Below are positions 1-50,476 of a stretch of 64,000 bases of DNA, one piece after another. This DNA is from Arthonia radiata (Eukaryota; Ascomycota; Arthoniomycetes; Arthoniales; Arthoniaceae). Every line of letters starts with the position of its first letter. Positions within the stretch are counted from its first letter, which is position 1. The notes under the pieces are model-generated. The model searched no databases. It worked only from the letters and a program-made list of their open reading frames with translations, and had not been told where the DNA came from. The position numbers were made by a program, and so were the translations under genes. The stretch lies in assembly GCA_002989075.1 (NCBI GenBank), contig PSQN01000010.1, positions 372,001-436,000 on the forward strand, read 5' to 3'.

Positions 1-3000
1 CTAATAATATTAAAATAGAGGGGAAGATAGAAGTAGACCTATAGAAGTATAGTAAGGAGCTATAGATAGAAGATAGTAATATAAAGAAGCGTTATATATA
101 ATCTAACCTTAAGATTAAGTATAAAATAGTATTAAAAGACTCTAATATAATCTCTTAGCATTATAGTAGCTTTAATAGAGCTTAACTAAGTAACTAGAGT
201 GGTTATTAGTCTATAGTAGGAGTAGTACTACTATAACTATAATATTAGTAGTAGAAGTATCTATTATTTTAGTATATTCTAAGAGGTTAAAGATACTATC
301 TACTACTTAACTTATCTCTAAAGATAAAGTAGATTCTTTTCTTAACTCTAACACTATTATGATTAATAGTCTTAATTCTTAATCTACTAAGACTAGTAGT
401 AAAGATATACTATTAAATTTTATAGTTACTAAGACTACTTTAATTAATAGTAAGAAAGATAAAGAGAGTATTTATAGCAACCAATATAATAATAAGTCTA
501 GTAGAAGTACTATCTATACTATTACTCTTATAGTATATACTATAATAAAAGCTAAAGAGGTATAAGTAGTACTTATCTACTAGGCTTTACTTCTAGAGAG
601 TAATAAAGATAAGCTTTTATAGCCTACTAAATACTTATAGATACTATTAACTAAGCTTTACTTAAAAATATATAAATAAGTACTATAATTAAAGTAATAT
701 CTAACTATAAACGCCTACTTTCTATCTTATAATATAACTATATAAAATTAAAAGATAATATTATAATATATCTTCTTTAAAAAGAATATATATGTAAATA
801 TAATATACTTGTAATTTAGAAACTATAAAGAAATCTATAGTAGAATACTAGCTATAATCTAGTTAAATAGTACTTTAATTTAGTATACCTACTCTATAGC
901 TCTAATATAATAGTCTAAGTAGTGTTTTTTACTAATTAAAGAGTTTATTACTTAAGCTAAGATATTATATACTATACTTCTAATTTAATTCTACTACAAC
1001 TATTTATAGAAGAAGATACTTAGGTAGTATATATTCATAATATTTATAATCCTAGCCCTTTAAACTGATAGAACTTAGTAAGCTTAATAGTCTATAGACT
1101 ATTTATTAGCTAATATAGTTACTATATAGCTAATAGATAAGTACTTAATTATATATAACTTTAATCTCTACTACTCTCTTTAAAGTAGACTAGACTAGAA
1201 TAAGTATAATTCTTAGTATCTAGACCCTTAAATTCTATTTATTAAGACTAAGTTACTCTAGCTACTTACTCATTTTAGTACCAAGATATTTAGATCTAGT
1301 ATGTATAATTAAGGTACTACTATTAACCTTACTTTTATAATACTAAACTTAGTAGAAGAACTTATTAAGTATATAATCAATCTAAAAGTAGATTAATATA
1401 GTAATTATAAGTCTATTATTATAGTTTTAGAGCTTTTTCTATAATAAGTATTAGATATCTTTTAATATAATTAAAAGAAGCTTCATACTACTAGCTTTTA
1501 GTAGAATATCTTAACTACACTATTTAAATAATTTAAGCTATTAAATAAAAAAACTTAGATATAATTACCTTATTACTTCTTTAAACAATTATAGAAGTAG
1601 TAGAAGTAAATATTCTTAAGATTTATATCTATTTATACTTAGTATCAAGACTTAGCCTAGTTATTTAGTAGCTAATTAAGAAAGTATATAAGACTTACTA
1701 TTACTAGTATCTTATCTACTATTAATATAACTAGAAGAATTATTTTAAGATATATTATTAAAAGACCTAGACTATATAGTAGATATATAGAGCCTACTAG
1801 CAAAAATTTACTAAAAAATTAAGATTAATAAGTCTCTCTATAATATTAGTAAATAGATAAAGAATAGCTTTTCTCTATATTTAATCATTATACACTCTCT
1901 TAGAGATATAGTAACTAGCTGAATAGTAATAGACTTTAAAGATAAAGTAGTACTACTATAATAGTTATTCTTCTCTATACTTAAAGAAGTAGATCTTTTA
2001 AATCTTATTAGCTACTAATACTAAAGCTCTATATCTTTTACTAAACTTACTAAGATAGAGGTTATTAATATAATTAAAACTAGTTATTTAGATAAAGTAG
2101 CTAGAGTAAACCAAATTCTATTTTATATTCTTTAGACGGCTAGAGATATCTTTAATTATACTATATAGCTATTTCAAGCCTATATCTAATTAGACTACTA
2201 TTCTAAACCCTTTTAATAACTACTAATAGTAGTTCTATATAAACTAGATAAAGATAATTATTAGAACTCTAAGGCTTTTTAACTAATTATATTATTATAT
2301 ATCCTAGATAAAGCTCTTAAGAAGATTCTTACTATAGAAATTAGCTACTAGATTAAAGAATATAGCCTACTACTATAGCTATATATAGATAGCTATAAAC
2401 TTACATTATTAGAGAATACTATATATTTAATATTAGAAAAGATTTTAGTAGCTCTTAAATTCTTAGAAATACTAGTAGTAAGTATATTTTAACTTAATAT
2501 TAGTGAGGCGTTTAATAGTATTAACTACTAAAGGCTAAGATACTATTTACTTGAATAATATATTCTTTTAATAGTAGTAGAGTACCTACTCTACTACTAT
2601 TAGTAATAAGTTTCTATACTAATTATACTATAATATAAATAACTAAGGAAGAGATACTACTTTACTATACTATAATAGATATACTATAGGGGTCCCTAAT
2701 ATTATCTATTCTCTATTTATTTTATAACGCTAATCTAGTTAATATAGTTACTAAGCAAGGCTATATAGTTCTAGTATTTATTAATAATCTTGATATAGTT
2801 ATTATAGAGTATATAGCTTAAAAAAACTATATAAAACTAGCTAAGCTATACTATTATCTATGAGGATAGAAGTATTAGTACACTTTAGTCTTTAACAAGT
2901 ATAAGTATAAGTTTGTTTACTTCTTTAAGCCTATTTAAAGGCTTTAATTCTTAGTACTAGACAATAATATATTTAGAGTACTAGAAGTTATAGTTAACTT

Positions 3001-4468
3001 AATACTTAGCTAAAAGCTATATCTTAACTATGTTAAATTAAAATTAATAAAGATACTTACTTTAGTAAGTTATAGTAACTTAGTATAGAGTCTTAACTTT
3101 AATACTATATATATGCTCTACTACGCTATAATCTTTCTAAGGTATTAATTCTATATAGGTATTTAGTATAATATATACTAGAAGTAGAGTTCTATAAGCT
3201 ATATTAAGGTATTATTATATAAACTCTCTATATAATTTAAAAGTAGATAGCTAAGATTATTACTAAAGAGTTTAAGACAGTTACTTAAGAATTATTTAAT
3301 ATATTATATAGTCTACTACTAATTAACTCAGTCTTAGAATAGAAGCTTATAAAAGTATTTATATAGCTATATTTAGCTTTAAACTATCTATTAATATAAG
3401 TAATTTAAGACTTAGGTTCTATAGCTAATATTTTATAATTATGTAAGTATTACTTATTACTAATTAAGATCTATAAGACCTAATTAATAAGAGACTTTAG
3501 TCTAAACTTTATAAAGTCTTTTAAGTAGTATATATTTTTCTTAGTAAGCCTCTAAAAAGGCTCTCTTATAATACTATAATTATTTATAATCTAGATACTA
3601 TAATTATAGAATATAACTAGCTTATTATTTAGTTCAGAGCTCTTATAATATATATAGATAGTAGTAGATTTAAGAGCTATGTTAGTATTACTATAATACT
3701 TTCTATAATAAAAGATACTTAGATAGCCTATATAAGTTATAAATATAAGGCTACTATATATACTATAGAGGTAAAGGGTATAGCTATGGTAGTAGAAATA
3801 GTATAAGAAAATATAATAATAGATACTATAGAAATTTAAATCTTTATAGACAACTAAGTAGCTATCTAGTATATAATAAGAAAGCCTAATAAGGTCTCTA
3901 AATAGATCTTTATAGTTAAAGCTTAGTAATACATTTAATAGATATAAGAAATATAGTAAAATAGAGGTAAGAGTCCTATTTTATTTAATATATAATAAAT
4001 ACTATTATACTATAGGGTCCTTAGTAATAAGACTATAGATAGAGTAGTAAAAATAGCTACTAGATAGAATAGTAGTATTAAGAAGGTATCTTTACTAATA
4101 GTAGACTAACTTAAGATTACTATAGTTATAGCTTATATAGTAATACTTAAGATAAGACTTAAGTAGCGCTAAATAGATTACTAGATATAGAGCTTCTATA
4201 GCTAATAAGTCTAGAAGCTATTTATTAAGCTAGTACTGCTATAAAGCTTTATAAGAATAGAAAATAACTAATTATCTCTATAATAACTTAGCTTATTATA
4301 GAAAAGATTAGACTTTATACCTATCTATATAGATAGATAGAAGATATACTAACTAGAAACTATATTTATCTACCTATATAGCCGATAGACAGTTATATTT
4401 TTTTTTACTACTATTCTAATTTAATATAACTTTAATATAATATTCTTAGTAAGGTTATAGTTAACTAT
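1..4468 (+). mobile_element. Tad/I-like LINE (LINE G), RIP-degraded, 5' part outside window
   Basis: This is a non-LTR retrotransposon on the + strand. Conceptual reading shows the order endonuclease (about 730-1,440), reverse transcriptase (about 1,900-2,950) and RNase H (about 3,640-4,030), which is typical of the Tad1/I group in ascomycetes. The sequence is strongly AT-rich, almost lacks CpA, and is riddled with TAA/TAG codons, so it cannot be expressed. The first ~700 bases probably hold the end of ORF1 but show no motif I can name. The Fot1/pogo element at 4,471 interrupts the AT-rich tract; the LINE's 3' end beyond 6,473 cannot be recognised. The class call is firm. The exact family and boundaries are not. 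Confidence 0.75.
730..4250 (+). pseudogene. LINE ORF2 relic: endonuclease, reverse transcriptase, RNase H
   Basis: The reading frame preserves LINE ORF2 landmarks despite many in-frame stops. In the endonuclease part there is an 'IHNIYNPSPLN'-like segment near 1,035-1,070, a YNFNLYHSL-like segment near 1,150 (family GDFNLHHPLW) and SNYK near 1,400 (family SDHxP). The reverse transcriptase keeps SPILYLFYNA near 2,700 and FINNLD near 2,780 (family FVDD). RNase H keeps YIDSS near 3,650 and IFIDN near 3,840 (family F-T-D-N-Q). The replacements D to N, H to Y and Q to stop are what C-to-T/G-to-A changes produce, so RIP explains the decay. The frame has dozens of stops. Confidence 0.7.
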
Positions 4469-4470
4469 TA

Positions 4471-4582
4471 CCCGCACCCTTCTTACTCGGTCCTATTGGA
4501 TATAGAATCCTACGCTATTCCGCTTCGGGTTTTCTTATTTGTTGGTACTAGCTAAAGCTAGCACCCCACGCTTATATAAAAT
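4471..4582 (+). repeat. Left terminal inverted repeat of Fot1/pogo element
   Basis: About 110 bp match the reverse complement of 6,359-6,470, with differences that are mostly C/T or G/A. Inside it, 4,544-4,565 forms a near-perfect hairpin with arms GGTACTAGCT and AGCTAGCACC. Confidence 0.85.
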
Positions 4583-4929
4583 CTCTAGTCACACGAGATT
4601 GATTCGCTTATATTAGCTACTTATAGATCGTAATAAGCTTAAAACTCGATAATCTACTTACTAATCGATAGCTTGAGTTCTGATCTTATAGCTGGCTTGC
4701 TTGTTTTAGTAGTTAGAGCCCTAGCTTATTCCGTTCCTGCGTTCTCCGCGCGCCAAGCTTCCTTTTAATTGCCCTTCCGATTCCGCTTTCCAACTATTGT
4801 TCTTAAAGAGGAAGCCGTAACTACGCCTCCTTTCTATATCTAACGACTATCGCCCTTCTTACGCTTAAGTTCCTTACGTCTGCGCGCTTTTAATTAAATA
4901 AAATTAAGATCTTTAAGAGCTAGATTCCG

Positions 4930-6330
4930 TCCGGTCATTGTATACGAACTAGCACGCACAAGCTAGTTAAATGCGTTCTAAGTCGGGTAAACCTAATAAT
5001 CGGGACCTTACAGGTACTGTACCTAATTTACGATCGAGTTAACGTATTAATCTAGTTTTTGTACCGTTTAGAGAGTTTTAGACGGCTTTTTTTAATCGGC
5101 ATCTGGTTCCTAATAGGCTTTATATAGGTCCGGTATCTAATTAAGTACCTTACTTGTATTTAACGGTTAGATTTCTGTTTTAGCAAAGTCTAAGTGTATA
5201 GTTGCCTCTTTAAACGTATTCCTGTATATCTCTAAAAGCTTATTAAGAAAGTCTGTCTTTCTAAACTTAGTTGCGCCGGAACATACTGCCCGATCGAGTA
5301 CCTGCGCGTAGTAGTACTTCTTAACTTAGAAGATCGATACGTTAAGCGGCTACATTAGATATATTATATACGCTAAGAAGTAGAAGATCTTAATTTTATA
5401 ATTGTCGGCATATTATATAAACTCTGTAGTAGCTTAGCCGGCAAATCTATTTAAAAGAAGCAGTCGATATACTCTTTGTTGCCTCTTTAAGGTAGATTTA
5501 TTGAAGTGCTATAGATACTTAAGTATAATATTATTATTAGCATAGCCTAATTTAAAAAGAGCAAGCATCGTCTCGCCTCCAATATCTGTTCTGGCCTAGT
5601 ATACCTAATAAACGACGCCTAGAAGCACTATAATTGGGTCTAGCTTCGATTTAGTTACAGAAATCGTCTCAATTAGAGTAACTAGTGTACAATCTATTGC
5701 GCTTAGAGCTACTACTCTTGTCGTATACGATTGTACTACAACCCAATTTAAAGCTTCTATTCCGACGCGGAAGCCTGCTTAGTCGATATTCTAGATATTA
5801 TGCGGGTCGATCGTATACTCCTATATTAGCTCTCTAAGCTCTTAATACTACTTTCAGATAGTATCTCGGTTCTACGCTAGGTACCGCGTTATTTCTATTG
5901 GCTTCTAGCGTGCTAGCTTATACTAAGGATACCGAGCTAGCTATCTTTAGCACTAAGACTTCAAAACTTGGGGGAGAGGTGCGTCTGTACCTATATTTAA
6001 CGCTCGCGTTAGAATCAAATTGACCGCCGATACGATTATACAACGGGTCGGAGCAAGGTAGATCTTCCCTAAGCAATTAATATAGCTACAGAGAGCTCTA
6101 TTTTGGGTAGTTGTAAGCCGCTCGGGGGTATTATAGCGCTTCTAGATCGATCCGCGCTTCCGAAAGCGGGCATAAAGCGTTGCGTATAGAATATTATTAT
6201 CGCGAGCCAGCTGCTTAAAGTTAAGCTTCTTCTTTAATTAATTAGTATATAGAAGCTTTTAAATCTTCTATTTCTGTTTCTGTAGATCTTATGCTATATT
6301 TAAAAGTTTAAAGCGTAGAAAGATGATAGG
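4930..6330 (-). pseudogene. Fot1/pogo DDE transposase relic
   Basis: Reading the - strand gives the Fot1/pogo transposase layout. Near 5,765-5,810 it reads a 'YTIDPHNI.NID.AGFRVG' pattern, matching the family motif around the first catalytic Asp (YGI-P-NIYN-DExGF). Near 5,290-5,350 it reads PLNVSIF.VKKYY, matching the family segment QPLDVxxFxxLK that follows the second catalytic region. The expected product is a ~500-residue cut-and-paste transposase with an N-terminal helix-turn-helix. Several in-frame stops, mostly of the CAG/TGG-to-TAG type, make this copy inactive. A non-autonomous use of its ends cannot be excluded. Confidence 0.75.
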
Positions 6331-24600: not shown

Positions 24601-27033
24601 TTTTTAAATCTTAAAGTTAATATAAAAATAGCTTATTTACTTTATTTTATTAAATATATTTAAAAACTTTTAAAACTCTTTAGATAATTTAGTTTTAAAA
24701 TCTATTATCTTTTACTCTTTATTTTTGTAGATTTCAATATTTTTTATAGATATAAAGAATACTTTTATATCTTTATATTTAATTAAGTATTAAAAAAGTA
24801 TTATACTAATAAAGTTAATATTTATAAAATTAGTAAATTTAGTAGCTTTATAAACTTATATTAAAGCTTACTTTTATTCTTTATATATATATTTCTTAAA
24901 TAATATCTTTTAAGTATCTTTAATAGCTACTAATACTCCTTATTTTTAGTTGATTATACTTATAATAATTAATAAAGTATAAACTTTTAATTAGAGCTTC
25001 TTAATAAATAAATAATACTTAAGTATCTTAAATTTAAAGATTGAAAGTTTCTTTAATATAAATATTCTATTGCTATTATATAATAGTTTAGTATTAATTT
25101 AAGTTAATAGTAAGTTAAATAGTAATTTAAATACTATTAATTAATTTTAAATTAGCTTTTATTTATACTTATAGTTACTTATAAACTTTAATATATCTCT
25201 TTTATAGTTTATAAAAGTTAAGTAATTTTTTAATTAGCAATTTTCTAGTAGCAACTATTATTTATACTATTTTATAATATAAAATAGTATTTTTAAAATT
25301 TAATAGTTTTATATTTAAATTAAAGTAAAGAGTTCTTTTTTAATAATCTATCTTAGTTAGCTTTTAAATCTTTTAGTAGTTATAAACTTAGTTAGTTTTA
25401 TTAACCTAATCTTAAATTATTAATATATCTTTTAAATAATATAATAATTTATAATAGTAGTAATTTAGTAACTTATATTTACTATCGCTAAAAATTTAAG
25501 TAAAGTTTAAATTTAGTTATTAACTATTAAAAGCTATATTTAAATAAATAAGTTACTTTATATTTTAAGATTATTTTTAATACTAATTAGTTAAAAAAAG
25601 AGAAAAAGAAAAATTATTATATTTTTTTAAATTACTATTATTACTAAGTTTTAGTCTTTTTAACTAAACTTTATAAAAAACTATATATTTCTTTATTTAA
25701 ATATAAAAGTTTTATTTTAAAAGTAATTCTTTTAATAGTATCTTTTCTTTTAATATTTATAATAAATAATATTTTTAAAGTTTTATTAAAAAAATTTATA
25801 TTTATACTTAAAGTTAATTAATATACTACTAAAATTATAAAAAGTTTTATTATAGCTAAACTACTAACAACTATTAAAATTAAAATTATTTATATTTATA
25901 AGAAATAGTACAGTTAAATATTATTATTTTTTAATGGTATTTATTTAAAACTTTACTTTATTAATTTATTAAATATTTTAATTAATAAATTAGAGTTTTT
26001 TAATATAAATAGTAACTATTTTAAACTTTACTAGTAATATTACTTCTTTTAAAAGTATCTTAATTTTATTTTTTAAATTATATAGCTAAATAAACTTATT
26101 GATATTTATTTTAATTATATACTTATAAAACTAAATAAAAAACTTAAAAAGCTCGTTTTATTTTTAATATAAATTATAATAGTTTTTTTTGATAGTTATT
26201 TTTTAAAATAAATCTTTATATTAATTTTAAGAGCTTAATAAATATTTTTAAGTATTATATTATTTATTTAATTTAAATAAGATTTTATATATTAAGTTAT
26301 AGTACTATTTAGCTTATATAAATATAAACTACTTTAATTTTATTTATTAAGTATTAGTTAATATTAATATATATTTTATTTTCTATATAACATATCTATA
26401 ATTTAAGTTTTTAGGTAGCTTTACTAATAAAGATAGAAAAATTAAATACTTTCTTTAACTTCTTTTTTCTATTAATTTATTCTAAAATTAAACTATTATT
26501 TTTAATTTTATAGTAATAATCTTTATATAATTTTTTTACTTAGTTTTTTTAGCTTAAAGCTATTATAACTTAACTAAATTTTTATTATTTTTAGTATAAA
26601 AAATAGCTTAAAATAATATAAAATCTTTTAATTAATACTTAATTAGTTTAATAGTAGACTTATTATTTAAATATTATTAAAGTTTTCAATAAAATTATAT
26701 ATTTAAATTATTATCTTTAGCTAGTTATTCTAATAATAATACTAAAAATACTATTTTAATCTATCAAATATTAACTATTTAAGCTTTATACTTAAATAAA
26801 ATTAATAATACTTTTTATTATAATAGAGTTTATTTTATAAAGTTAAAATATTTTATATCTTCTATTAACTACCTTACTTAGCGTTATTAATTATATTTTA
26901 TTAAAAAATACTTAAATAATTTAATAAATTAGTATTATTATTAAGTATAATATAATAGTCTTTAACAAGTATTAATATTATTAAAATTTATTATATATAT
27001 ATAGTTAATAGAAAAAGAGAAGCTTTAAAATAA

Positions 27034-27307
27034 TATTATAAATAATATTAAAATAAACTTATTAACTATATAAAGAAACAATAGAATTTTAAAGCTATAA
27101 AATAACTATTTAAAAAGCTAAAATTACTGTTTATGTTAGTTAAAACTACTTATTAAGTCTTTATTTTTATCTAAATAACTAAAAGATAGCGTTAATAAAA
27201 GATAAACTAAAAGATAATTTATAATAAAGAATAGTCTTTTTAATATAATAAGTATATTAATAGCTTTTAAATATAGTAAATAGTCAATTTAAGCTAATTT
27301 TATAATA
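27034..27307 (-). repeat. 5' LTR of Gypsy C1
   Basis: This 274-bp repeat is the same length as both LTRs of C2. Confidence 0.85.
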
Positions 27308-27308
27308 C

Positions 27309-27775
27309 TAGTATTACAAACCTAAATATACTAAATTACTAAATTAGATATTATCTTTAATATTAGATTTACATAGTTTTTTATAGTAGTAGTATACTAT
27401 AATATAATATTAAAGACTTGCTTAGTATAGTAGTATTAGAATATAATATTATAGTTAATTTATTCTATATAATATTGCACGTAGATATACTAAGTTAAGT
27501 TCGCTGGTTTAATTTCTAATATAAATAGCTAAGTTCTTATATAACTATAAGAAATCGCTAAGTAGTATATTAGTATATATATAAAATAGATTTAAGGCGT
27601 ATAGGTATTATATTGTTTTCAATAGATTGTAACTTATAGAGTTGTAAGTCTAAAAGAGGTAATAGTAGTATTATAAAACTATATATACTATATTATTAAA
27701 TTGGATGTTGTCTTTAATATTAGGTTTGCTTGGCTTTTTATAGTAGTAGCATACTATAATATAACTAGCCTTTAT
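27309..27775. repeat. ~100-bp direct repeats about 361 bp apart, beside C1
   Basis: 27,311-27,408 and 27,672-27,769 are similar, sharing for example TTTTTATAGTAGTAG and TATACTATAATATA. On the - strand each begins TTATATTATAGTAT and contains TATAAAAA, which resembles an LTR start with a TATA box. This may be a small LTR or a tandem duplication cut by C1. The family is unknown. Confidence 0.45.
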
Positions 27776-28648: not shown

Positions 28649-29909
28649 GGGTCCTAGCTAGAGTCCTATTAAGACTAACTAATCTTTCTTATCTTAGCTA
28701 TAAAGAACTTAGTCTAGAGACTACTTTTCTTTAGTAGCTAATAGATACTATAGTAGAAAGAGAAGAGTATAGAGGTTAAGTAGAGTATATAATAATAGAA
28801 TACTAGGTTATATAGTATAATTATAGTAATATAAATAGAAAAGCTATATAGCTCTTCTTTAATTTACTTAAAAATAGTCTTATTATTATACTCTAGAAGC
28901 TAAAATAGAATATTTATACTAAGTTAATATACTATCTAAAGCTATATAAACTTAAGTTTAATTTTATTTTACTAATCAAGATAGCTTTTCTAGTTAAATA
29001 GATACTAATAAAAAAGAGTATAGTCTTTTACTAATTTAGATTATATATAGCTAAGCTTATCTTTAATACTAATATAAAGATAATTAGTATAGTTAATATA
29101 TATAATCTAAGAGATAGTAATAATACTTTTACTATATAAACAGCTATCTATAATACTCTCTAAAGTACTATAGATAAGTATATTTTACTAGAAAACTTTA
29201 ATCGTTATAATCTAATATAGAGTAGCTTTATAGTAGCTAGTAACTAGAGTGTATAGGTTCTATAGAAATTATATACTAATTTTAAGCTTTATTTACTTAC
29301 TTTATAAGTAAATTTAATTTAAAGAAGAGAATAGTAGTTCTTAGTTATAAATCTTATCTTTATTACTAAATATATTTAAGTAGATATTACTTTTTATAGC
29401 CTATAACTAGAGTAGACTCTTATTTAAAACTATATTTTAATTAAGCTATACTTAATAGAGACTTTTAGTAAGTAGAATAGCTATATATAACTAGCTCTAA
29501 ATATACTTAACATAGAAAATTATATTAAAAAGCTAAGTAACTTATAATAGTATAATATAGAATACTCTTTTAAGACTCTTTATCTCTACTTAGTAGCTCT
29601 TTTACTAAAATATTATTAATTAGTATATTTAAGTAAAAAAGTAAGATTAACCTAGTTTTTTAAAGTAAATTAGCTTTTAAAATATATATAATAGACTAAG
29701 AAGACTTACTTTATAAACTCTACTTCTATACTAAAATATAAGTTTTAATACTAGTTTAACTTTTTCAAATATAAGCTTTATTAAAATAATAAAGAATAGT
29801 AGTACTACTTTTTATAGAAATATATTGAGTTAGTAAATAAATAAAGAAGTCTCTAAAAAATATATAAGTAGAGTAAGAGTAAGTATACTAGTTTAATAAA
29901 GATTCTATT
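28649..29909 (+). mobile_element. LINE F segment 2: endonuclease region
   Basis: The + strand reads an AP-endonuclease-like segment. VNIYNLR near 29,093 matches the family H-N-V-Y-N-P motif, and ILLENFNRY near 29,180-29,206 matches ILLGDFNxHH. From about 29,480 to 29,905 it runs into the linker before the reverse transcriptase. Gypsy C2 interrupts it at 29,909, and the reverse transcriptase follows C2 at 55,187. Stops are numerous and of RIP type. Confidence 0.65.
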
Positions 29910-30183
29910 TATTATAAAATTAGCTTAAATTAACTATTTACTATATTTAAAAGCTATTAATATACTTATTATATTAAAAAGACTATTCTTTATTATAAAT
30001 TATCTTTTAGTTTATCTTTTATTAACGCTATCTTTTAGTTATTTAAATAAAAATAAAGACTTAATAAGTAGTTTTAACTAACATAAATAGTAATTTTAGC
30101 TTTTTAAATAGTTATTCTATAGCTTTAAAATTCTATTATTCTTTTATATAGTCAATAAGTTTATTTTAATATTACTTATAATA
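29910..30183 (+). repeat. 5' LTR of Gypsy C2
   Basis: This 274-bp repeat pairs with 54,913-55,186. It begins TATTATAAAATTAGC, from a TG start altered by a transition. Confidence 0.88.
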
Positions 30184-30570
30184 TTATTTTAAAGCTTTTC
30201 TTTTCTTTATTAACTATATATATATATATTTAATGAATTTTAGTAGTATTAATACTTATTAAAGACTATTGTATTATACTTAATAATAATACTAATTTAT
30301 TAAATTATTTAAGTATTTTTTAATAATATATAACTAATAAATACTAGCAAAGATAGTTAATATAAAATATAAAATATTTTAACTTTATAAAATAAATTCT
30401 ATTATAATAAAAAGTATTATTAATTTTATTAAAATATAAAGCTTTAATAGTTAATATTTAATAAATTAGAATTGTATCTTAGATATTATTATTAAAGTAA
30501 CTAGCTAAAAATAATAACTTAAATATTTAATTTTATTAAAAACTTTAATAGTATTTGAATAATAAGTTTA

Positions 30571-30733
30571 TAAAGTCAATTCGAGTCTTAAAGACAGACA
30601 ATATAACAATAGCTTTCCCTTGCTACTAAGTATTGTACCTATACTAAGTCTAAGTATTGCACTAGTCTTAAGCTAGTCTCGTCTTTCTACTCTTTATAGT
30701 AGTATTCTTCTTCTTTCCTGTACCTTTTTAATA
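30571..30733 (+). repeat. 5' terminal repeat of D3
   Basis: This 163-bp repeat ends in CTTTTTAATA, the usual 3' end of this Copia family's LTR. It is followed at once by the primer-site sequence GGCTATAAGCCCGG. Confidence 0.87.
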
Positions 30734-31875
30734 GGCTATAAGCCCGGGTTAGTACCAATTCCTTTTAAATTTCCTTTTTAGAAAATATTTTCTCTTCGAT
30801 ATTTATCGGCATCTCCGAACGATTTTATTACCAATCGACTCTAAATTTTAAGCCTAATTTAACTATTAGAACAGAATTTCCTTTTTTTTCGGAAATCTCC
30901 GATTATAAATTCGGCTATAGACTCCTCTTATAAGATCTCTAAACTTAAGAGCTCGACTAATTAAGACATTTAATCGATTCGAATAGAGGCCTTTTTAAAC
31001 TAAAAAGGGCTACAGTAATATTATAATCCTCTTTTTTGGCTATTTAGCTAGAAATAATACTAAAGCTAGCCGCTAAAAACAGTCGATAAGAACAGCAGCC
31101 CTTATTTAACTAACTCTAAAGAACAGTCCTTTTATTTAAATAAAGAGAATTTATAACTCTCTAGAGCTTTAAAATAGCTTAAAAAGGTTATATAAATTAA
31201 AAGATTATAGTTTTGAGTTTCTAATTTGTAAGAAGCTCTTTAGCACTATACTTAGTAAGATAAAAAACCTTAAGCTTTATCTTACTAAAATTAGACAATT
31301 AACGGACAATTTAGTAACCTAAGGACTAGTACTATCTAATAAGATAGTAGCTACCTACATCCTTTATAATTTAACTTCTAAATATAAGTATACAGTAGCT
31401 ATTATTAGCTAAATTTATTAGTAAATAACTAGTAATATAAGTTTATAGGACTTATTTAGTTAACTTATAAACAAGTCTCGCCGAATCCGCGGTAGTATCC
31501 TAGTAGAAAACGTTTTTACTACAATAGACAATAAATCGACGCAAAGGACCAAAGAAAAATTAAAGTCTTTAAGTAAAAATTAAGAAAAATGCCTCTTTAA
31601 TAACAAAAAGGAGCATAAACCGGCAACTTATTAGAAAAAATATCCAAACCTCCGGCTAAATTCTAACAAAAGCTCCAAAAACACTAATTTTTTAATATTT
31701 TCTGTAAATAGTTCTAATCTATAAGAAGAACAATGCTTTATAGTATTATTAAACGGAGTTAACTACTTTATTAATTCTTAAATCCTTGATATAAGCTTAA
31801 TAAGCTATATTTGCTCGAATATTAATTTTCTAACAGATATCCGGCCAACTAACCGGATTATTCGTTAAAGAGGAG

Positions 31876-32038
31876 GAAAGTTAATTCGAGCCTTAAAGAT
31901 AGACAATATAACAATACCTTCCCCTTACTACTAAGTATTGCACCTGTACCAAGCCTAAGTATTGTACTAGTCTCAAGCTGGTCTCGTCTTTCTACTCTTT
32001 ATAGTAGTATCCTTCTTCTTCTCTGCACCTTTTTAACA
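31876..32038 (+). repeat. 3' terminal repeat of D3
   Basis: This 163-bp repeat ends CTTTTTAACA and is followed by the target duplication GTTTA. Confidence 0.87.
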
Positions 32039-33171
32039 GTTTATTATTAAACTAATTAAGTATTAATTAAAAGATTTTATAATATTTTATTTAAATTAAA
32101 TAGTACTATAGCTTAATATATAAAACTCTATTTAAATTAAGTAAATAATATAATTTAAAGATATTTATTAAGCTCTTAAAAATTAATATAAAGATTTATT
32201 TAAAAAAAACTATTAGAAAGAACTATTATAACTTATATTAAAAATAAAAGAAGCTTTTTAAATCTTTTACTTAATTTTATAAGTATATAATTAAAATAAA
32301 TATTAATAAGCTTATTTAACTTAATAATATAAAAAATAAAATTAATATTTTTCTAAAAAAGTAATATTATTAATAAAGTTTAAAATAGTTACTATTTATA
32401 TTAAAAACCTTTAATTTATTAATTAAAATAATTAATAAATTAATAAAGTAAAGTTTTAAATAAATATTATTAAAAAAGATAACATTTAATTATATTATCT
32501 TTTATAAATATAAATAATTATAACTTTAGTAGCTATTAGTAGCTTAGCTATAATAAAGCTTTTTATAACTTTAATAGTATATTAATTAACTTTAAGTATA
32601 AATATAAATTCTTTTTAATAAAACTTTAAAAAGATTACTTACTATAAGTATTAAAAAAAGAGGTATTTTAAAAAAATTATTTTTAAAATAAAACTTCTAT
32701 ATTTAAGTAAAAAAACGTATAGTTTTTTATAAAGTTTAGTTAAAAAATCTAAAATTTAGTAATAACAGTAATTTAAAAAATATAATAATCTTTTTCTTTC
32801 TTTTTTTTAACTAGTTAGTATTAAAAATAACTTTAAAATATAAAGTACCCTATTTATTTAAATATAGCTTTTAATAACTAGTAACTAAATTTTAACTTTA
32901 TTTAAATTTTTAATGATAGTAAATATAAGTTACTAAATTGCTACTATTATAAACTATTATATTACTAAAAAGATATACTAATAGTTTAAAGTTAGTTTAA
33001 TAAAGTCAACTAAATTTATAACTATTAAAAACTTTAAAGGCTAATTAAAATAGATTATTAAAAAAAACTCTTTATTTTAATTAAAATATAAAACTACTAA
33101 ATCTTAAGAATACTATTTTATATTATAAAACTAAATAAATAATAGTTACTATTAAAAAAGTACTAGTTAAA

Positions 33172-33725: not shown

Positions 33726-36700
33726 ATTCCTTTTAAATTTCCTTTTTAAAAAATATTTCTTTTACAAAACCTATCGGCACCTTTAAACAATCTTATTACC
33801 AATCGACTCTAAATTTTAAGTCTAATTTAACTATTAGAACAGAATTTCTTTTTTTTTTTAGAAATCTCCAACTATATATTCGACTATAGACTCCTCTTAT
33901 AAGATCTCTAAACTTAAGAGCTCGACTAATTAAGACATTTAGTTAATTCGAATAGAGGCCTTTTTAACTAAAAAGAGCTATAGTAATATTATAATCCCCT
34001 TTTTTAGCTATTTAGCTAGAGATATTACTAAAGCTAGCCGCTAAAAACAGTTAATAAGGGTAGTAGCCCTTATTTAACTAACTCTAAAGAACGGTCCTCT
34101 TATTTAAATAAAGAGGATTTATAACTCTTTAGAGCTTTAAGATAGCTTAAAAAGGTTATATAAATTAAAAGGTTTTAGTTTTAAGTTTCTAATTTGTAAG
34201 GAGCTCTTTAGCACTATACTTAGTAAGATAAAAAACCTTAAGCTTTATTTTGCTAAAATTAGACAATTAACTAACAATTTAGTAACCCGAGGACTAGTAC
34301 TACTTAACAAGATAGTAGCTACCTACGTTCTTTACAATCTAACTCCTAAATATAAGTATACGGTAGCTATTATTAGCCAAACTTATTAGCAAATAACTAG
34401 TAATATAAGTTTATAGAACTTATTTAGTTAACTTATAAATAAGTCTCGCTAAATCTGCAGTAGTACTCTAATAGAAAAGGTTTTTACTACAATAGACAAT
34501 AAATTAACGTAAAGGATCAAAGAAAAATTAAAGTCTCTAAGTAAAAACTAAGAAAAATACCCCTTTTATAACAAAAAGAGGTACAAACCGGCAACTTATT
34601 GGAAAAAATACTTAAACCTCCGGCTAGATTTTAACAAAAGCTCTAAAAACACTAATTTTTTAATATTTTTTTATATAGTTCTAACCTATAAGAAGAACAA
34701 TGCTTTACAGCATTATTAGACGGAGTTAACTACTTTATTAATTCTTAAATTCTCGATATAAGCTTAATAAGCTATATTTGCTTAAATATTAATCTTCTAA
34801 CAGATACCTAGCTAACTAACTAGATTATTTGTTAAAAAGGAGGAAAGTTAATTTAAGTCTTATAGACAGGTAAAGTAAAACTATTCTTTAAGGACAAAAT
34901 AATTGTTCTAAACAAAGTTTTATTTATTAAGAAATTTAAAATTAACCTTCTAAGCTTTAATAAGCTTAGAAAGAGGGGAGATAAGGTAACTTTTAGCTAA
35001 AACAAGCTAAAAGTTAATTAAGCTAGATAACTAACTACTAAGAGGCAGTATATTAATAGTTTAATAGTAATAAAAGCTTAGACTATTAATATAGTTTAAT
35101 CTTTCTATACTATTTTTTTAAAAACTGACCTTTAGTATTAACGAATAGAATATATAAGCAAGAACGCCTTAAAATAGCTTAAAAAGTTGCTCTAGAGACA
35201 GATTATTTAGACAAATTAGAAAATAATTGCTAAATTTACTTTAAAGTAAAGGCAACGACTAAAGTTAGCTAAAAAACTTTAAACAAATTAATTAATTATT
35301 TAGAAAAAGTTTACTTAAATATTTATAAGCTAATTATACTGCAAACCCCTTCTAAAGGTTAATTATTTACTAGCTTTATAAATAATAAAACCTGGTATAC
35401 AACTACTAAGGTACTATAGTTTAAAGACTAGATTTTTAATGCATTATTTATCTATATTACTTAGAAAGAAACGTAGTTTGAGCATTCTTTTAAAAAACTA
35501 TACTTAAATAATATAAAAGAATATCGGAAAGGTCAAATAAAATAGCTTTTAAAATAAAAAGAAGCTATTTCAACAATATCTATATTATATATCTTTTAGT
35601 AAAATAGACGAGCTAAACGCTTTAACCGAACAATTGTTAGTAAAGTTTAAGCAATACTTTATACCGCTAAACTACTTTAGATATATTGAATAAAAGCGCT
35701 AAGAGCAGCTATCTATATTTATAATAGAACCTCTTATACTAAATTATTAAGGTTTATTATTCCGTATAAAGTAAAATACGGTAAAAAACTAGATATTAGT
35801 ACTATTAAAATTTAGAGCTTAGTTATTTATTTTAAAGAACCTAAACTAAAAAAATTAAACGCTAGAGTAATTATTTATATTCTAATAGACTACAGATCGA
35901 ATTAATATAAGCTCTTAGACTCTAATAGCTAAAAAGTTTACTAAAAGAGAGACGTCTACGTTTAAAAAGGAAAATTTATTTGAGATCTATAGAGATCTAC
36001 AGTTAATTAATTAACCAAGAGTATTTCTAAAGAGTTTAAAAAATAACTAAAAGTTAAGTTTAAAAATAAGCTAATTTTAATCGCTAAATCTTAAGATAAT
36101 AGAAAGGTATCTTCTAATAAAGAAGGAAGTTTTTTATATAAGAAACAGTATACCTTCTCTATATTATAACAACTAGCGGACAAATTTAAATAAAAACTAT
36201 ACTAAATTAGAGCTTTAAACGAGTCTAACCTTCTTATTAAGTTAGATTATAGAAGTACTAAAGACTTCAGCCGAATAGATATCGATTGTACCTAAGAAAT
36301 AGATTTTATATACAAAAACGTCGACAAAAATTAGTTTAATAAGTTCTATAATAACCTAGAACAATATACCGAATAGACCTTAGTTATAGTTACTAAAGAG
36401 CTTAATAACTTAAAAGAAATAAGAATATTTAAGAATTAGCCTTCTTAGCTAAATATAATATAGTTAAAGCTTAAAGAGCTAGCTAACTAAGAAACTTAAA
36501 TATTAACTAAGCTACTACCGAATAAAAAGACGCTAAAAGGGTGCTAAATACCGAAGATTAAATACTTTTTAAAGAACAAACTAATTTTTAAAGTCTGCTG
36601 AATAGCTAAGGGCTGCCAGTAAAGACCCGGTCTTAATTTTATAAAGACCTTTATAAATATAGTAAATTTAATTACTTACTAGCTTATACTAGCCTTAGTA

Positions 36701-48587: not shown

Positions 48588-50476
48588 GTTCGGCTCGTCT
48601 GTTTTACTGAGAGGTATATAGTACGAATATCGTTAAAATAGCTTCTTTTTGTTTTAGAAGCTATTTTATTCGGTCTTCTTGGTATTCTTTTGCGTTATTT
48701 AAGTATAATCTTTTAAAAGAATGCTCAGACTACGTTTCTTTTTAAGTAATATAAGTAAATAGTACGTTAAAAATCTAATCTTTAGACTATAGTACCTTAG
48801 TAGTTGTATACCGGGTTTTATTATCTATAAAGTTAGTAAATAATTGACCTTTAAAAGGGGTTTGCGGTATAATTAGCCTACAAATATTTAAGTAGATCTT
48901 TTCAAAATAATTAGCCTATTTGTTTAGAGTTTTTTAGCTAACTTTAGCCGTTATCTTTGCTTTAAAGTACTTTTAGCAATTATCTTCCGATTTATTCGAA
49001 TAATCTGTTTCTAAGGCAACCTTTTTAAGCTATTTTAAGGCGTTTTCGCCTATATGTCCTATTTATTGATACTAAAGGTTAGTTTTTAAAGAAATAGTAT
49101 AGAGAGATCGGACTATATTAATAGTCTAAGCTTCTATTACTATTAAGCTATTAACATACCGCCTCTCGGTAGTTAGTTGTCCAATTTAATCAACTTTTAG
49201 CTTGTTTTAGTCAAAAGTTATCTTATCTCCTCTCTTTCTAAGCTTATTAAAGCTTAGAAGGTTAATTCTAAATTTCTTAACAAATAAAACTTCGTCTAGA
49301 ACAATTATTTTGTTCTTAAAGAACAGTTTTACTTTATCTGTTTAAAAGGCTCGAATTAACTTTTCCCCTCCTCAACGAATAATCCGGTTAGTTGGTCGGA
49401 TATCCGTTAAAAGGTTAATATTCGAGCAAATATAGCTTATTAAGCCTATATCGAGGATCTAAGAATTGGTAGAGTAATTAACTCTGTCTAGTAATGCTGT
49501 AAAGCATTGTTCTTCTTGTAGGTTAGAATTATATATAGAAAATATTAAAAAATTAGTGTTTTTAGAGCTTTTATTAGAATTTAACCGGAGATTTAGGTAT
49601 TTTTTCCAACAAGTTGCCGGTTTATGCCCCTTTTTGTTATAAAAGGGGCATTTTTCTTAGTTTTTGCTTAAAGATTTTAATTTTTGTCTAGTTCTTTACG
49701 TTAATCTATTGTCTATTGCAGTAAAAACCTTTTCTACTGAGATACTACCGCAGATTTAGCGAAACTCATTTATAAGTTAACTAAATAAGTCCTATAGACT
49801 TATATTGCTAGTCGTTTGCTAGTAGCTTTAGCTAATAATAGCTACCGTATACTTATATTTAGAGGTAAGATTGTAAAGAATGTAGGCAGCTACTACCTTG
49901 TTGGATAGTACTAGTCCTCGAGTTACTAAATTGTCTGTTAATTATCTAATTTTAGCAAGATAAAGCTTAAGGTTTTTTATCTTATTAAGTATAGTGCTAA
50001 AGAGCTCCTTATAAATTAGAAACTCGAAACTAAAACCTTTCGATTTATATAACTTTTTTAGGCTATCTCAAAGCTCTAGAGAGTTATAAATCCCCTTTAT
50101 TTAAATAAGAGGACCGTCTTCTAGAGTTAGTTAAACAAGGGCTGCTACCCTTATTAACCGTTCCTAGCGGCTAGCTTTAGTAATATCTCTAGCTAAATAG
50201 CCGGAAAAGAGGATTATAACATTACTGTAGCCCTTTTTAGTTAAAAAGGCCTATATTCGAATCGATCAAATGTTTCAATTAGTCGAGCTCTTAAGTTTAG
50301 AAATCTTATAAGAGGAGTCTATAGCCGAATATATAGTCGGAGATTTCCAAAAAAAAAAAAGGAAATTCTGTTCTAATAGTTAAATTGAGCTAAAAATTTA
50401 GAGTCGATTGATAATAGGATCGTTCGGAGGTGCCGATAGGTGGAATATTCTCTAAAAAGGAAATTTAAAAGGAATT

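Follow-up and report, generated by a model that had tools for sequence, protein, structure and literature searches.

The locus at positions 30571-32038 of the window (the whole stretch of 64,000 nucleotides of Arthonia radiata contig PSQN01000010.1 that was analysed) raises the question of how an integrated retrotransposon can carry terminal repeats that are built in part from its own internal sequence. The element, D3, is a Copia-type derivative of 1,468 bp with direct terminal repeats of 163 bp at both ends. Searches for its relatives covered the assembly of 33.5 Mb in 16 contigs.

Anatomy and integration of D3

Each repeat of D3 consists of one base, 19 bp of gag/protease sequence and the 143-bp 3′ part of the family LTR (Table 1). 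The sequence-only reading had described exact repeats in which internal sequence is fused to the LTR. The fusion stands, with an internal share of 19 bp and not 30, but the exactness was wrong: the two repeats (30571-30733 and 31876-32038) are identical at 144/163 positions, and their 19 differences comprise 17 transitions and 2 transversions. The first repeat position is among these differences (T on the left, G on the right), and identity over the other 162 positions is 144/162. The homologous part of the right repeat (from 31877 on) does lie directly 3′ of the purine tract AAAGAGGAGG, as had been noticed, and the 14-nt run that holds this tract occupies the same place inside the relatives D1 and D2. 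The AGACAG match at the join between gag and LTR, also pointed out earlier, is real, but the crossover has to be placed one base 5′ of it, between A(-2) and A(-1), because position -1 is T or C in 37/37 other distinct internal sites read. The earlier observation of D3 as an integrated chimeric element is, in all, partly confirmed.

Table 1. Features of D3 and of related sites in the window
Feature	Position	Strand	Remarks
Left copy of the target site duplication, GTTTA	30566..30570	.	5 bp; from empty-site comparison
Extra T at the left end of D3	30571..30571	+	no counterpart in the right repeat; 31876 is G, the last base of the purine tract
Left repeat, part 1 (new U3)	30572..30590	+	19 bp of internal gag/protease sequence, directly 3′ of the purine tract
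Left repeat, part 2 (putative R-U5)	30591..30733	+	last 143 bp of the family LTR; starts with AAGACAG
Primer binding site GGCTATAAGCCCGGGTTAGTACC	30734..30756	+	GGTTATGAGCC at its start in less mutated relatives
Remnant from gag to the start of protease	30757..31866	+	even the best of the three frames across 30734-31875 has 23 stops
Internal purine tract AAAGAGGAGG (PPT*), putative plus-strand primer	31867..31876	+	within a 14-nt run, the longest in the D3 interior
Right repeat, part 1	31877..31895	+	internal sequence, 19 bp
Right repeat, part 2	31896..32038	+	last 143 bp of the family LTR; ends with AACA
Right copy of the target site duplication, GTTTA	32039..32043	.	from empty-site comparison
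Same purine tract in relative D1	34834..34843	+	runs on into internal sequence, no LTR here
Same purine tract in relative D2	49364..49373	-	internal
Paralogous empty site of the flanking repeat	26620..26689	-	65/70 identical to the joined flanks of D3

The left flank of D3 is itself a repeat, with nine other copies that are matched over the full length of the 495-bp query. Eight of these nine were examined as paralogous empty sites (C10:905100 being left out), and 8/8 are uninterrupted across the insertion point, have a single GTYTR and lack D3, with 61-65 of 70 positions identical. Random 5-mers of the local flanks match by chance with a probability of about 1.0%. The proposal that D3 integrated properly and duplicated GTTTA is hence borne out: the motif flanks both ends, and the empty sites show a real target duplication and not a fortuitous match. 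A 6-bp duplication, GTTTAT, was considered and is disfavoured by the second element described below (D4), where the corresponding hexamers differ (CAGCTT versus CAGCTA); a duplication of 5 bp plus an extra T is therefore favoured. The repeat that hosts D3 belongs to an AT-rich family, present in the window at 26655-27359 (-) and 29854-30570 (+), and 10 further copies of it align with the complete 495-bp query, or very nearly so, at 83-90% identity.

Full copies of the parent family measure about 5.4 kb and have LTRs of about 507 bp, that is, 364 bp before the join (in L016) plus the 143 bp seen in D3 and D4. These LTRs run from TGTTRG to AACA, the normal 3′ purine tract just 5′ of TGTTRG is short (for example AAGAAGG or AAGAGGG), and 5-bp duplications flank 4/7 full copies printed (ATAAG, AGAAT, CTAAG and GTTAC). 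D3 itself lacks pol. RVT_2 (PF07727) lies within at least 5 of the 12 fetched loci (L014, L015, L016, L018 and L020; best 150 of 203 candidates scored), and the family is assigned to Ty1/copia because this domain is found inside full-length relatives. At ≤2 mismatches, the assembly contains 500 places with the late LTR pattern and 499 with the regular LTR junction CTAAYAAGACAG...; the internal site, at ≤3 mismatches, is found 157 times, D3's two included. Of 498 candidates the best 40 were scored, and among the 43 matches listed from them, 39 other than D3 are long and 86-90% identical; the alignments of the long relatives to D3 end at query positions 1316-1336, which is where D3 switches from internal to LTR sequence.

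In contrast to the 499 regular junctions, the chimeric junction (a 35-mer tolerant of C/T and G/A changes, ≤3 mismatches) occurs at two places in the assembly, both in D3's own repeats. No amplification of D3 is therefore visible: the check for multiple copies that had been suggested returned no other copy with the 163-bp repeats within this tolerance, and an amplified D3 family was rejected on this basis. Within the same tolerance no other copy has the short portion in its LTR, and the LTR of another Copia subfamily was rejected as the source of this portion. Three matches that start at query position 1, on C3, C1 and C10 (L005, L019 and L020), are not relatives of D3 either; they have the ordinary CTAAY/AAG junction, and their alignments merely extended upstream past it. 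An array of 1,627-bp period on C9 (L053, C9:214500-224400, reverse strand 2398-6121; three LTRs) was also discarded as another derivative, with no PBS after its LTRs and a spacer foreign to the family; judged by this layout, it is a tandem duplication of a solo LTR and its flank.

The internal purine tract and a second element

Both LTRs of D3 start at the 3′ end of one purine tract, with a target duplication outside them. At this start the left end of D3 has T where its right end has G. A purine precedes RAAGT at all 38 distinct sites counted (37 other copies and the right end of D3), and a second element described below (D4) has T in its place; the tract is 10 nt long in 37 of these sites and 11 nt in one. 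In 6/6 full copies scanned, the two longest purine runs of the + strand (both 14 nt) include the one that the tract forms together with RAAG; inside D3 this run is the longest, the next measuring 9 nt. In 6/6 full copies (L013, L014, L015, L016, L018 and L020) the internal tract is followed, 134 bp downstream, by another 14-nt purine run.

A search of the whole assembly for the left end only (a pyrimidine before RAAGT) returned exactly two places, D3 and D4. This search ignored the LTR junction, whereas the earlier one that led to D4 had been built on the D3 junction and was hence biased. D4 (L081, C3:441502-442296) is a 795-bp chimeric LTR unit with CAGCT on both sides, arranged as CAGCT, T + GAAGTC ... 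AACA, CAGCT. It reads T + GAAGTCAATCC... (a new U3 of 652 bp in all), joined at AAGACAGACAATATAAC to the 143-bp LTR end. Its family sequence begins exactly 3′ of the same purine tract as that of D3, in one LTR. The internal breakpoint lies 632 bp downstream of D3's and the LTR-side join nucleotide is identical (immediately before AAGACAG), the crossover being ambiguous within the shared 5 nt AAGAC. Of the 13 x 7 offsets tried in the scan for a duplication, two neighbouring registers gave a match (ACAGC and CAGCT); we chose CAGCT because it is consistent with the AACA end of the family and with the geometry of D3. A second copy of the unit was not found in the 4.5 kb fetched around D4, and for this reason D4 is read as the solo LTR of an element with rebuilt LTRs of 795 bp. 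When the LTR part was searched for with a purine before it, six places were returned: D3's two, C3:441624-441645 (D4) and three ordinary LTRs. The latter (C6:834402, C6:839306 and C10:2311874, with a purine before AAGAYAG) were rejected as further derivatives.

D4 starts at the internal tract although another 14-nt purine run sits nearer its junction. Because its LTR end was set by the upstream tract despite the closer run, the internal tract seems to be a preferred plus-strand primer.

Read with the next base, the extra T yields a TG end in D4 (followed by G) and a TA end in D3 (followed by A). Untemplated addition of an A at blunt ends is common among reverse transcriptases; such an A on the minus strand would give the T and, where the next base is G, a TG terminus. 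The T on the left and G on the right of D3 were considered as proof of a first-generation product, but the argument fails, since in every generation the right LTR is preceded by the G of the tract. That D3 is a first-generation product rests instead on the finding that the assembly search returned no parent with the junction. One cycle would have sufficed for D3 on grounds of parsimony, a parent since lost being possible.

A proposed reverse-transcription route and its rivals

We propose that D3 arose in an aberrant reverse-transcription cycle, in which a misdirected first-strand transfer was followed by plus-strand priming from the internal tract, and that the product was then integrated; we give this reading a probability of about 0.7. 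What it builds on is observed directly: the repeats are chimeric, the integration is clean, the element starts at the 3′ end of the tract, and D4 has the same start, junction and T. Minus-strand strong-stop DNA (a copy of R-U5), with a 3′ end complementary to AAGACAG..., would anneal internally and not at the 3′ R, at AGACAG in D3 and at AAGAC in D4. The resulting minus strand would lack U3 and the normal polypurine tract, so that the internal tract would have to prime; plus-strand synthesis would begin there and give a strong-stop product made of the internal stretch, R, U5 and PBS. This internally started product would then make the second jump and become both LTRs, one non-templated base added on the left would create a TG terminus, and the integrase would insert the molecule. 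The new LTR would lack the family's TATA-bearing U3, which would explain why the copy did not spread. In D3 the proposed annealing would mismatch at the very 3′ nucleotide, or need one added base (-1 differs from 37/37 sites).

The position of the join on the LTR side bears on this proposal. In 43/44 LTR segments, homologous copies that amount in effect to one observation, a TATATAA-like motif begins 38 bp 5′ of the join, and a Y/A step, which stands at many transcription starts, is found at the proposed RNA start. From the TATA spacing and the shared junction, we infer that the RNA 5′ end lies at the A of AAGACAG. Among left-maximal matches of at least 5 nt between interior and LTR in five full copies, 0.5-1.3% fall on the shared join site. 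Misdirected first-strand transfer is preferred over deletion because the internal breakpoints of D3 and D4 differ and yet the LTR nucleotide is shared, just 3′ of the TATA motif; this shared-join argument rests on two events, of which D4 is a solo unit. The sequence-only reading had invoked a deletion at microhomology, then priming from the internal tract. Its priming step, which yields a new short LTR, has good support and is seen again in D4, and its deletion step is probably better replaced by the misdirected transfer, so that the earlier interpretation as a whole is supported in part.

In the order of events imagined there, a chromosomal copy would first have lost the DNA from gag to the LTR at the microhomology, and its transcript would later have been reverse transcribed with priming from the internal tract. 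The same final anatomy of D3 would result, and the AGACAG match at the join is there to serve it. We nevertheless regard this order as unlikely: it requires two steps and the survival of a damaged copy, it leaves the common LTR-side nucleotide of D3 and D4 unexplained (0.5-1.3% expected), and a pre-deletion locus that combines a normal 5′ LTR with the gag-LTR join did not turn up in the assembly, where the join is present only in D3's repeats. That shared nucleotide weighs in the same way on a template jump at a later stage, in which the transfer to the 3′ R would be normal and the growing minus strand would then leap from the LTR to gag before internal priming. Jumps that delete into the 3′ LTR have been proposed for HIV-1 (PMC9278108, in the part consulted) and the anatomy would again be the same, but the jump point would be free to fall anywhere in the LTR, and this makes us consider such a jump improbable.

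Slightly less probable again is the descent of D3 and D4 from one founder in which the internal tract had been activated, one of the two being derived from the other through a later U3 deletion. The tract, the extra T and the LTR-side junction are indeed common to both. The T cannot decide the matter, since the right LTR follows the tract's G and the T would be added anew in each cycle, and against a single founder stand the internal breakpoints, 632 bp apart, which would require the later deletion to hit the same LTR nucleotide by coincidence, as well as the absence of any intermediate left end from the search that gave two places only. As for the possibility that the 19-bp stretch comes from another Copia subfamily, as part of its regular LTR, or that chance accounts for the repeats and the duplication, we found nothing in favour. 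A chance match of 5-mers in the flanks has a probability of about 1%, the junction is limited to D3 as against CTAAYAAGACAG... at 499 places, and all 8/8 empty sites examined speak against it, so that this explanation is scarcely credible.

Misdirected transfer followed by internal priming may also be a recurrent process. We would put at even odds the broader proposition that a second plus-strand primer, built in near the gag-pol boundary, repeatedly rescues failed cDNA with new LTRs (20 or 652 bp of U3 plus 143 bp of R-U5), a non-templated T restoring the TG preferred by the integrase; LTR length and U3 would then be replaceable in a single cycle, as a natural counterpart of self-inactivating vectors.

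Relation to TRIMs and other known systems

TRIMs have LTRs of roughly 100-250 bp and measure about 1 kb or less as whole elements, with no coding remnant. The LTRs of D3 (163 bp) fall within this range; the element as a whole, at 1,468 bp and with a gag/protease remnant, does not fit, and it shows no amplification, the junction being found at D3 only (≤3 mismatches). Within its LTR we found no TATATAA-like motif, and just 20 bp occupy the U3 position, which is why D3 probably had no promoter. As the TATA-bearing U3 of the family is gone, D3 is unlikely to be a TRIM founder, and the suggested birth route for small TRIM-like elements is weak for an element that is apparently single-copy, too long and deprived of this U3. 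The route would be limited unless captured internal sequence or the flank supplied a promoter. The 652-bp new U3 of D4 has one TATATAA-like motif, at position 309, and the lack of further copies of D3 and D4 fits with or without such a motif in the new U3.

The comparisons with published systems draw on portions of the cited papers. TRIMs have been characterised as internally deleted forms of larger elements whose LTRs are similar (PMC4717578). Like D3, plant TRIMs are small and non-autonomous and have short terminal repeats, but they keep the LTRs of the larger element, and one has recently transposed, whereas D3 has new LTRs, is apparently single-copy and retains a 1.1-kb gag remnant (PMC4717578). 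RLG_Kyoko resembles D3 as a non-autonomous deletion derivative that retains gag; it keeps the LTRs, PBS and PPT of its partner, whereas D3 lost U3 and the normal PPT (PMC12542154). Second purine tracts have been described in Ty1 and HIV-1 (PMC2829016, PMC3206600). In Ty1, which shares with the D3 family both the Ty1/copia superfamily and a second purine tract in the coding region, plus strands start at PPT1 and at PPT2 within pol (Heyman et al. 1995, cited in PMC3206600 and PMC2829016). In the portions consulted, PPT2 is not reported to define LTR ends, as the internal tract did in two integrated elements, D3 and D4. Retroviral internally initiated plus strands belong to the same class of intermediate as in D3 and D4, and PPT-primed strands prevent their transfer, according to the title of Bowman, Pathak and Hu 1996 (cited in PMC2829016); in D3 and D4, by contrast, apparently no normal PPT was left to block the internal strands. 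HIV-1 proviruses with asymmetric LTRs are like D3 in that misalignment of the minus strand, proposed for them, deletes up to and into the 3′ LTR, but their 5′ LTR is mostly normal, whereas both LTRs of D3 are rebuilt (PMC9278108).

In the open-access literature covered, with subscription journals mostly outside its scope and sources seen in part, we recognised no description of an integrated element with LTRs rebuilt from an internal purine tract. Plus-strand starts at internal sites are an established biochemical finding, but, to our knowledge, LTR ends are not expected to be set by them; D3 and D4, as fossils in the genome, suggest that this can happen, with target duplications as well. Since misdirected first-strand transfers would leave a record of RNA 5′ ends (the start of R), elements of this kind may furthermore allow these ends to be read from the genome sequence by itself. 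Such elements also bear on the origin of unusually short or long LTRs: a single step can replace U3, though probably with loss of the promoter.

The start of the primer binding site, GGTTATGAGCC in less mutated relatives, gives a partial match, of 11 nt, to one tRNA-Met anticodon arm (1/11 loci scanned contained a tRNA); 15- and 13-mer patterns of the arm were absent. The fungal GalEa Copia clade is described, in the portion consulted, as having no PBS and a conserved hairpin sequence that follows the 5′ LTR, for example CTGATCAGT (PMC5445492). We did not find a sequence of this type: in the copies printed the LTR is followed by GGTTATAAG..., and in D3 by GGCTATAAG.... Seven copies (L066, L070, L071, L072, L074, L075 and L076) keep TGAG at the PBS where the printed copies have TAAG, and the load of RIP-like changes therefore varies between copies. 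Beside a family element, L012 holds two adjoining direct copies of about 284 bp (1462-2028), LTR sequence included. A related PBS-like sequence, CGGGCTCATAACCTGTC, is found in two further loci, L068 and L073, which are possibly other Copia families that use the same primer.
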